The notes below the pieces were generated by a model. That model was given only the letters and a program-made list of their open reading frames with translations. It was not told the origin of the DNA and searched no databases. A DNA stretch of 64,000 nt from Blastococcus capsensis (GTDB lineage Bacteria; Actinomycetota; Actinomycetes; Mycobacteriales; Geodermatophilaceae): positions 186,001-250,000 of the forward strand of contig NZ_JASNNW010000006.1 of NCBI RefSeq assembly GCF_030165005.1, in the 5' to 3' direction. Numbering within the stretch: position 1 is the stretch's first letter; every line of letters begins with the position of its first letter. Position numbers and translations under genes: made by a program. Shown in pieces: positions 270-1,355 of this stretch.

Positions 270-533
270 GCCGCGGCCCCCCGCGGAAACGTGGAGCGCC
301 AGCGGAGCGTTCTCGTGGGGTCGGTTCATGGACGCAGCTCCGCGACGCAGCTCCGCTGGGGATCAGGACACCTACGGCGCACTCCCGCTGGGGAACCGGA
401 AGTCTGCGACGCCTTCACCCCGCCACTGTAAGCCGGGCGGGTGACGGTCCCGGCGGCCGCTGGACCGCTCGCACCACCTGCCTCACCGGTGCGGCCGTGG
501 CGTCGGCGTCCGGCCGTGTGCCACACTCGTCCC
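270..533. other. Intergenic region between pcrA and the chorismate mutase leader
   Basis: These 264 bases lie between two divergent genes and must hold both promoters. I see a direct repeat of CGACGCAGCTCCG near 333-356 and, at 522-527, CACACT placed six bases before the GTG of the downstream leader peptide, which fits an actinobacterial -10 box for a leaderless transcript. No convincing -35 box is visible. No protein-coding signal is supported. Confidence 0.4.
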
Positions 534-596
534 GTGCTCGCCACGGTCAGCTTTTTCTACGGTCACCGGGATCCGGTGTCCGTCACCGCTGGCTGA
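534..596 (+). CDS. Candidate leader peptide with a Phe-Phe-Tyr run (attenuator control peptide)
   Basis: A 20-codon frame starts at GTG 534 and ends at TGA 594-596: V-L-A-T-V-S-F-F-Y-G-H-R-D-P-V-S-V-T-A-G. Codons 7-9 are TTT TTC TAC, three consecutive aromatic codons, and TTT is rare in this GC-rich genome. The gene downstream is chorismate mutase, the branch enzyme for Phe and Tyr. A perfect hairpin CACCGG-GAT-CCGGTG (564-578) begins right after the aromatic codons and a strong terminator follows at 614-650. This is the layout of ribosome-mediated attenuation. The start has no Shine-Dalgarno and a -10-like CACACT sits 6 bases upstream, so leaderless translation is likely. The peptide is inferred; I could not find a convincing antiterminator by eye. 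Confidence 0.6.
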   Translation: MLATVSFFYGHRDPVSVTAG

Positions 597-613
597 GCAC
601 ACGCCGCAACAGA

Positions 614-650
614 CGCCCCGGGCCCGAGGAGCCCGGGGCGTTTCTCGTTC
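614..650 (+). terminator. Intrinsic terminator/attenuator upstream of chorismate mutase
   Basis: A perfect 10-bp stem (CGCCCCGGGC at 614-623 with GCCCGGGGCG at 631-640, 7-base loop) is followed directly by TTTCTCGTTC. It lies between the FFY leader peptide and the chorismate mutase start at 687, so it would end transcription before the gene when the leader ribosome does not stall. A second GGGGCCCGGG block at 653-662 could pair competitively with the stem's left arm. Confidence 0.7.
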
Positions 651-686
651 TCGGGGCCCGGGTCCACGACCTCCCGAGGACCACCG

Positions 687-980
687 ATGAGCACCCTCAC
701 CACCTCCCCCGCCGCCGGCCCCACCGCCCCCGAGGACCCGGTCGAGCGGATCGGCGAGCTGCGCGGCGCGATCGACGCCTGCGACGCCGAGATCATCGAG
801 CTGGTGCGCCGCCGCCTGGAGATCTCCCAGGAGATCGGCGCGCTGCGCTCGGCCTCCGGCGGCACCCGCCTCTCCCTCGCCCGCGAGCAGCAGGTGCTGT
901 CCCGCTTCCGGGCCGAGCTGGGACCGGACGGCGCGGCACTGGGGATGATGCTGCTCCGACAGGGCCGCGGCCGGCTCTGA
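687..980 (+). CDS. Chorismate mutase (AroQ fold)
   Basis: 97 aa. Catalyses chorismate to prephenate, the committed step to phenylalanine and tyrosine, in the cytoplasm. After a Pro/Ala-rich start, IGELRGAIDACDAEIIELV and RRRLEISQEIGALR form the long helix 1 of the AroQ fold, with the conserved Arg, Asp and Arg-Arg positions; the length fits stand-alone actinobacterial enzymes. ATG 687 is preceded by GAGGA at a proper distance. It is alone in its unit, behind a Phe/Tyr leader peptide and terminator, so end-product control by attenuation is likely. A structured repeat starts three bases after the stop. Adjacent to a UvrD-type helicase as in mycobacteria. Confident on family; secreted or periplasmic variants are ruled out by the lack of a signal peptide. 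Confidence 0.92.
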   Translation: MSTLTTSPAAGPTAPEDPVERIGELRGAIDACDAEIIELVRRRLEISQEIGALRSASGGTRLSLAREQQVLSRFRAELGPDGAALGMMLLRQGRGRL

Positions 981-1040: not shown

Positions 1041-1355
1041 TTACGGGCCGCTGCGCCAGACCTGGGAGTCGTCGTCGCCCATCGCGGCCACCTCGAACAC
1101 CCGGCCCGGGCAGGCCTCGTCGGCCTCGTCCGCCAGGTCCTTGCCGAGATCCAGCGCCGCATCGAGGTCGGCCGCCTCGCACTCGGTCACCACGCGCAGC
1201 ACCGCCCGGTCCGGCTCGCGCCAGAGCCGCAGCTCCGGGTCGTCGGGCCGGAGCACGGTGCGGAGGGCGTCGATCGCGGCGTCGTCCAGCGGCGCGGAGG
1301 AGCGCAACGCGACGGACAGGGTGAACGCAGGCACGTCCCGAGTCTGCGCGATCAC
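1041..1355 (-). CDS. Conserved hypothetical protein, about 104 aa
   Basis: I do not recognise a named family. The frame starts at GTG 1355 and has good actinobacterial codon use and a globular composition: a beta-like PAFTLSVALRSSAPLDDAAIDALR start, a central LRLWREPDRAVLRVVTECEA strand-rich part, a helix DLDAALDLGKDLADEADEA and a tail EVAAMGDDDSQVWRSGP. No transmembrane segment or signal peptide. A short alpha/beta sandwich (ACT- or YCII-like) is imaginable but not shown. Convergent with chorismate mutase and divergent from the PIG-L deacetylase, so probably a single-gene unit. Confidence 0.65.
   Translation of the reverse strand: MIAQTRDVPAFTLSVALRSSAPLDDAAIDALRTVLRPDDPELRLWREPDRAVLRVVTECEAADLDAALDLGKDLADEADEACPGRVFEVAAMGDDDSQVWRSGP

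Follow-up and report, generated by a model that had tools for sequence, protein, structure and literature searches.

A putative phenylalanine/tyrosine leader-peptide attenuator upstream of the stand-alone chorismate mutase gene of Blastococcus capsensis and related actinobacteria

Results

Organization of the chorismate mutase locus

The window analyzed here is a 64,000-nucleotide stretch of the Blastococcus capsensis genome, and all coordinates refer to its first base. Close to its left end lies a gene whose product matches PF01817 (E 1.1e-11) and, above their cut-offs, the NCBIfam models NF005894 and TIGR01808, in agreement with the chorismate mutase assignment made in a preliminary description based on the letters alone; at E<=0.001 the genome has no other CM_2 match. 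The features of the locus are as follows.

522..527, +, -10-like element CACACT, ending 6 nt 5' of the leader GTG (sequence)
534..596, +, leader peptide frame of 20 codons, GTG to TGA (594-596), VLATVSFFYGHRDPVSVTAG (sequence; conserved in relatives)
552..560, +, putative regulatory codons TTT (552-554), TTC (555-557) and TAC (558-560), encoding Phe Phe Tyr (sequence, codon counts)
534..600, +, possible outer helix in untranslated RNA, start-codon region 534-547 with stop-codon region 584-600 (fold)
559..583, +, predicted pause/anti-antiterminator hairpin (1:2), 559-562 with 580-583 and 564-569 with 573-578 (fold, covariation)
567..626, +, predicted antiterminator (2:3), 567-570 with 623-626, A571 bulged, 572-576 with 618-622, and 581-584 with 612-615 (fold, covariation)
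611..649, +, predicted intrinsic terminator (3:4), stem 611-623 with 631-643, loop 624-630, U-rich broken tail (fold, covariation)
676..680, +, Shine-Dalgarno-like GAGGA before chorismate mutase (sequence)
687..980, +, stand-alone chorismate mutase, ATG start at 687 (PF01817, NF005894, TIGR01808)

The divergent neighbor, a minus-strand frame starting at 270, has no Pfam match. Adjoining the chorismate mutase gene on its other side is a 104-residue frame (1041-1355, minus strand) with no Pfam or NCBIfam match; similar DNA is also found 3' of chorismate mutase in another of the loci gathered below (L010), and the frame may encode a conserved protein without an assigned family. No aromatic-run leader was found before the type II DAHP synthase or the prephenate dehydratase gene of this genome.

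An aromatic-codon leader is conserved upstream of chorismate mutase

We gathered 169 chorismate mutase loci from relatives, from the order and from a named GTDB collection, five of them fetched twice, giving 164 distinct loci; within the order, 385 of the 397 genomes searched had a chorismate mutase. In 132 of the 169 loci (128 of the 164 distinct ones), the upstream DNA contains a frame of 8-45 codons with no fewer than three consecutive Phe/Tyr codons; among controls, such a frame occurred in 6 of 3360 dinucleotide shuffles and in 1 of 169 reversed-and-complemented sequences. The 20-codon frame with TTT TTC TAC, pointed out in the preliminary description, is thus confirmed as a conserved feature well beyond chance. 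A relaxed leader motif was found in 158 of 163 distinct loci with upstream DNA, in 14 of 3260 shuffles and in none of 163 reverse complements. Its five failures were L027 (CFFHH), L075 (RYFARG) and the frame-changed loci L090, L137 and L140; together with L010, which has no upstream DNA, these are the six loci without a called leader. One relaxed hit, upstream of a second chorismate mutase copy in Actinoplanes italicus (L092), was discarded as a false positive, this paralog having no terminator.

Leaders from a wide range of loci share the peptide core F-F-Y-G-x-[R/G]-x-P-x-x-V; the leader of Geodermatophilus sp. DF01-2 (L162), for example, reads VLASFSFYYGHRVPVSVTAG. A Tyr codon directly precedes the Gly codon in 157 of 161 rows (duplicates included), and Phe or Tyr stands three codons before Gly in 154 of 156 loci, a count partly built in because the leaders were called by a Phe/Tyr motif. 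TTT is the third codon before Gly in 134 of 156 loci, and it is scarce in the window, where the long high-GC3 frames contain 2 TTT and 220 TTC codons. In L068, L074, L082, L151 and L090, and in L204 compared with L205, an indel past the aromatic codons rewrites the remainder of the peptide while the RNA segments described below are kept.

In L137, L140 and L090 the T-rich codon run is altered and the leader is put out of frame; read from its GTG, the frame of L137 and L140 bypasses the aromatic codons. These shifts may reflect sequencing error, slippage or decay.

Upstream of the frame, 131 of 156 usable distinct loci have a -10-like element (pattern [TC]AN[AC][ACT]T, chosen after inspection of the sequences) that ends 6-7 nt ahead of the start codon; at random positions the frequency is 2.6%. 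Because the element of the window sits 6 nt before the GTG, transcription is suggested to start at or adjacent to this codon, which would make the leader mRNA leaderless, as the preliminary description had called it. A consensus scanner reported no promoter here, and its one terminator-like hit (532-546) was not the terminator described below, which it missed.

Three competing RNA helices are predicted between the leader codons and the gene

The RNA downstream of the aromatic codons can fold into a pause hairpin and a terminator. The segment 558-585 folds at -16.4 kcal/mol (z -4.1) and 600-650 at -28.3 kcal/mol (z -3.45), in neither case equaled by any of 200 shuffles. A hairpin starting just after the aromatic codons had been noted before; the hairpin is there, although its start lies within the Tyr codon, at 559, so that two bases of this codon are taken into the stem. 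Similarly, the terminator had been described as a perfect 10-bp stem with a T-rich run, and while the terminator itself stands, its stem has 11 uninterrupted pairs (613-623 with 631-641), or 13 when one G-T and one A-T at the base are included, and its U-tract, TTTCTCGTT, is interrupted.

The antiterminator, which the preliminary description could not recognize by eye, has since been identified as a pairing of 567-576 with 618-626 and of 581-584 with 612-615. Counted from the first base of the Gly codon, its 5' segment begins 7 nt downstream, and its 3' segment occupies part of the terminator 5' arm and part of the loop. The core pairing in the window is CGGG-A-UCCGG:CCGGG-CCCG, with the bulged A. 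By energy alone the segment 566-630 is no better than shuffled sequence (-25.8, z -0.35, 69 of 200 shuffles as good). Compensated forms are found in Micromonosporaceae (GGAGUCCGG:CCGGGCUCC, GAAGUCCGG:CCGGGCUUC, GCAGUCCGG:CCGGGCUGC and, further, GGAAUCCGG:CCGGGUUCC), in family f15, probably Pseudonocardiaceae (GGACUCCGG:CCGGAGUCC), and in a mycobacteria-like locus (GGUCCGCGG:CCGCGGUCC), and several of the compensated changes fall in the terminator loop, a place unconstrained by the terminator itself.

To quantify this complementarity, leader segments were re-paired at random with the terminators of other loci. Across 62 unique leader-terminator pairs, 466 of 558 antiterminator cells were complementary, compared with 424.7 (sd 5.2) after partner shuffling, and none of 10,000 shuffles reached as high. 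The Micromonosporaceae group alone (family f16, probably Micromonosporaceae, plus the named loci L090-L169 minus three Geodermatophilaceae, including a few MAGs not named Micromonosporaceae) gave 299 of 351 cells compared with 281.6, again with 0 of 10,000 as high. Within the family of the window the test was not significant (74 of 99 cells compared with 71.9; 570 of 10,000 shuffles), since the sequences hardly vary there and the pairing needs the bulged A.

All three competing helices covary. In an alignment of 57 rows picked from 161, of which 82 were counted as non-redundant, the antiterminator was paired in 87.9% of cells, compared with 80.2% after shuffling and 20-71% with slid partners, and contained 39 doubly changed cells where shuffling gave 15.1. 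Pause hairpin and terminator together were paired in 88.3% compared with 80.8%, with 76 doubly changed cells compared with 28.9. The numbers of pairs changed on both sides were unexceptional: four for the antiterminator, a value reached by 44 of 500 shuffles, and eight for the other two helices, reached by 105 of 500. Partner shuffles and slides do not remove the effect of shared ancestry. Within the pause hairpin, the third base of the Tyr codon (column 12) covaries with its partner (C-G 47, U-G 6, U-A 4), and the Tyr codon would therefore also be a structural element.

Terminators for these tests were placed by a sequence anchor: a first finder chose long imperfect hairpins and was replaced, and its successor still misplaced some terminators (L066 and L073, for example). 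Left out were L083 (no arm), L092 (no terminator) and the six loci without a called leader. L083, from a mycobacteria-like genome (G137), retains an RFFYGYR leader with no terminator hairpin found, possibly a natural loss of the terminator or a sign of another mode of termination.

When the untranslated RNA was folded as a whole (534-650; -65.2, z -5.2), the structure contained the pause hairpin, the terminator and the possible outer helix. Across the family of the window this outer helix averaged -18.2 kcal/mol; shuffled partners gave -10.9, but partners exchanged between loci of the family gave -17.3. Such pairing of the start and stop regions (534-600) would conceal the 5' end of a leaderless RNA that is not being translated.

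Distribution of the leader RNA

A covariance model, R1, was built from the 57-row alignment. In the genome of the window it has one convincing site (E 6.9e-26), the other sites examined (L172-L176, L178, L179) lacking an aromatic-run leader. At E<=1e-6, R1 has matches in 164 of 200 genomes scanned within the order, and all 70 matches cross-checked against chorismate mutase coordinates lie 2-249 nt upstream of the gene on the same strand. At the looser E<=0.01 it matches 242 of 394 genomes of the class; many of those between E 0.01 and 1e-5 are probably plain terminators, and later scans were therefore run at E<=1e-6. Three class matches (L265, L266, L267) were set aside, matching neither chorismate mutase nor DAHP synthase. 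In genus g102 (large genomes, probably Streptomyces), 30 of the 38 matching genomes listed reach E 1.2e-7, and all 12 loci examined there had leaders such as MLTHPTFLFTYGNRPTGCHGRAA with chorismate mutase downstream.

The leader is also missing from several genera. No Phe/Tyr-run leader was found before chorismate mutase in seven of seven genomes examined of g65 (small genomes, probably Corynebacterium), in four of four of g28 (at one of these loci, L212, a short frame with two isolated Tyr codons persists), in three of g45, in two each of g63, g81 and g42, and in one each of g70, g76 and g85. The leader is present in L217 of g82 and in loci of families f2, f5, f9 and f12, and the absences look like loss within one family. 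At one locus without an aromatic leader (L220, of g42), chorismate mutase is preceded by a GC hairpin with T's behind it, which may be a terminator remnant. Genome G163 carries an R1 leader (VRRQRFLYGSRTPVAVTAA, L247), and the order search listed no chorismate mutase for it; the gene may lie in a gap, as only about 120 nt of the contig remain beyond the leader.

Rfam gave no match at gathering threshold in the window, and the seven sub-threshold matches to 480-720 belong to unrelated families, placing the element in neither the T-box nor any other family in Rfam.

Related leaders precede type I DAHP synthase

R1 also finds leaders before type I DAHP synthase genes, in family f31 of the window's class (L195, L248-L263) and in family f67 of another class of the phylum (L242-L246); 12 of 149 genomes of the latter class matched at E<=1e-6, five of them of family f67. 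The downstream gene was identified by PF00793 for L195, L242 and L245, and by tblastn for L248-L263, L195 and L242-L246. The codon runs of these leaders read WFFYG, FWRFYG, WSFWYG, FWFWYG and similar, with 11 distinct runs, eight containing Trp.

Trp occurs in the six codons before Gly/Asp in 19 of 22 DAHP synthase leaders, compared with 1 of 156 chorismate mutase leaders, the latter having been called by a Phe/Tyr motif that disfavors Trp. Among 18 other chorismate mutase leaders, one (L217) has Trp within six codons. This motif, and the origin of all 22 leaders in just two lineages, leave the direction of the contrast clear but make it weaker than the count would indicate; a Fisher value calculated from these counts does not represent a fair probability. 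DAHP synthase feeds the synthesis of Trp, Phe and Tyr, whereas chorismate mutase feeds that of Phe and Tyr only, and the difference in codons fits these pathway positions.

Discussion

A model for ribosome-mediated attenuation of chorismate mutase

Several elements by which such a switch would be recognized can be read in the sequence: a leader frame with start signals, a cluster of codons for the products of the pathway, an intrinsic terminator, and a competing antiterminator and pause hairpin. We consider it very probable that the locus is a ribosome-mediated transcription attenuator of chorismate mutase. The comparison of upstream regions supports the Phe/Tyr leader-peptide attenuation put forward in the preliminary description, since, in families of the order and outside it, frame, aromatic codons, hairpin, antiterminator and terminator are retained and covary. 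In B. capsensis and many relatives, the leader probably acts as a gauge of Phe/Tyr supply, chorismate mutase being made only when these amino acids are scarce.

In the proposed mechanism, transcription would start at or adjacent to the leader GTG, and translation would proceed without a 5' UTR. When charged Phe-tRNA is scarce, the ribosome would stall at TTT or TTC and cover the 5' side of the pause hairpin, leaving 567-584 free to pair with 612-626; the antiterminator would then take up part of the terminator 5' arm and part of the loop before the 3' arm is synthesized, allowing read-through into the gene. When Phe (and Tyr) is ample, the ribosome would reach the stop codon and cover the 3' part of the antiterminator segment, and the terminator would form, ending the transcript near 645. 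If the leader is left untranslated, the pause hairpin would form, with termination as the default.

We modeled the stalls by folding only the RNA 3' of the ribosome, up to base 630, with the front edge assumed to lie 12 nt past the first base of the A-site codon. For a ribosome holding TTT or TTC there, the minimum-energy fold of the freed RNA is the antiterminator (-25.8 and -23.6), whereas with TAC its outer helix is lost (-18.0), and Phe is therefore predicted to be the main signal. Once the ribosome has reached the stop codon, this model leaves the terminator as the sole structure able to form downstream. At equilibrium the segment 565-650 (-42.9) has the terminator formed even with a stalled ribosome, and antitermination would therefore have to be kinetic, relying on the order of synthesis. 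The comparison shows conservation, codon content, the place of the promoter-like element and three competing helices that covary, and we infer stalling, termination and a response to amino acids in which Phe would weigh more than Tyr.

The antiterminator and terminator would answer any stall at that place, and the leader could accordingly be a general translation sensor like that of whiB7, for which uORF-mediated control has been described (PMC13236596), with any slowing of ribosomes opening the gene and the aromatic codons being incidental. This reading is improbable in view of the codons themselves, the identity of which is kept (Phe or Tyr three codons before Gly, even if the 154 of 156 is partly built in by the motif) and changes with the gene, Trp appearing before DAHP synthase. 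Still less credit is due to an arrest peptide, in which the nascent chain and not uncharged tRNA would halt the ribosome: the conserved core from F-F-Y-G to the final Val counts in its favor, but the indels that rewrite the peptide after the aromatic codons while sparing the RNA segments speak against it. We likewise give very little weight to control of chorismate mutase translation through a hidden ribosome-binding site or re-initiation, the hairpin being merely structural. Cysteine leaders of Mycobacterium smegmatis are said to use translation attenuation (PMC13236596), and L083 has a leader without a terminator; the Shine-Dalgarno-like sequence at 676-680, however, lies about 30 nt past the terminator stem, outside the covarying helices. 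Finally, an intergenic terminator could serve another use, such as ending a stray transcript next to a divergent neighbor without a Pfam match, with the short frame arising by chance, yet this is extremely unlikely given the 132 of 169 loci compared with 6 of 3360 shuffles, and it is largely contradicted by the covariation of leader and terminator.

Relationship to known leaders

Attenuation of chorismate mutase by a leader peptide would place a known mechanism at a gene for which we found, in the open-access papers searched, no such description in actinobacteria. Neshat et al. (2014) is the primary paper on the most similar system, the aroR leader of Corynebacterium glutamicum. The accounts consulted describe aroR as a leader with Phe-Tyr-Phe in the aroF (DAHP synthase) operon, at which stalling under Phe limitation, and not under Tyr limitation, is said to raise transcription (PMC4046766, PMC11802643). 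The leader studied here is likewise an actinobacterial leader peptide with Phe/Tyr codons and Phe as the predicted main signal; unlike aroR, it precedes chorismate mutase and not DAHP synthase, and it is not of the aroR type in this respect. The pheL-pheA attenuator of Escherichia coli, described as a leader peptide regulated by the supply of Phe-tRNA (PMC11802643), resembles it in preceding a gene for the chorismate mutase step. E. coli pheA encodes a bifunctional chorismate mutase-prephenate dehydratase and the enzyme of the window is a stand-alone chorismate mutase, and we claim no homology between the leaders.

Other actinobacterial leader peptides, including leuL1, leuL2, trpL1, trpL2 and ilvL of Streptomyces lividans and that of ilvB1 in Mycobacterium tuberculosis, are also short and serve other amino acids and genes; the five S. 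lividans leaders are reported to be leaderless, and terminators to occur in some actinobacterial leaders (PMC8079986, PMC13236596). The list of eight S. lividans leaders given in one of these sources does not include chorismate mutase (PMC8079986), and in Seliverstov 2005 no conserved RNA structure was found ahead of the Phe or Tyr operons of actinobacteria (PMC1262725). The word "chorismate" is absent from the main texts of PMC2965389, PMC4046766, PMC3890552, PMC4833913, PMC13236596, PMC9094748 and PMC4633059. In the open-access papers to which the search was confined, we found no description of an actinobacterial leader-peptide switch for chorismate mutase, in line with the earlier remark that none was known; the C. 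glutamicum aroF leader is the one close relative.

A possible family of aromatic-codon attenuators

The leaders before DAHP synthase are an unplanned second result. Combined with those before chorismate mutase, they raise a broader proposal, for and against which we see the balance as even: that an old family of aromatic-codon attenuators exists in the phylum, sharing one RNA architecture before DAHP synthase and chorismate mutase, with codons matching the products, UUU as the main sensor and the Tyr codon partly structural, and that some lineages, probably including Corynebacterium, have lost the chorismate mutase copy. If this is true, Trp, Phe and Tyr codons would stand before the entry enzyme of the pathway and Phe and Tyr codons before the branch enzyme, and the loss of the chorismate mutase leader, probably in Corynebacterium among others, would help to explain the lack of an earlier description.

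The two kinds of leader, Phe/Tyr and Trp/Phe/Tyr, make the matching of attenuator codons to pathway position testable, and the natural frame-changed variants allow the sensing of codons to be told apart from effects of the peptide sequence. Chorismate mutase occupies the point at which the pathway branches to Phe and Tyr. A cis-acting switch before its gene in most sampled genomes of the order and in the genus that is probably Streptomyces would offer a means of influencing the supply of aromatic compounds, from which many natural products are fed.
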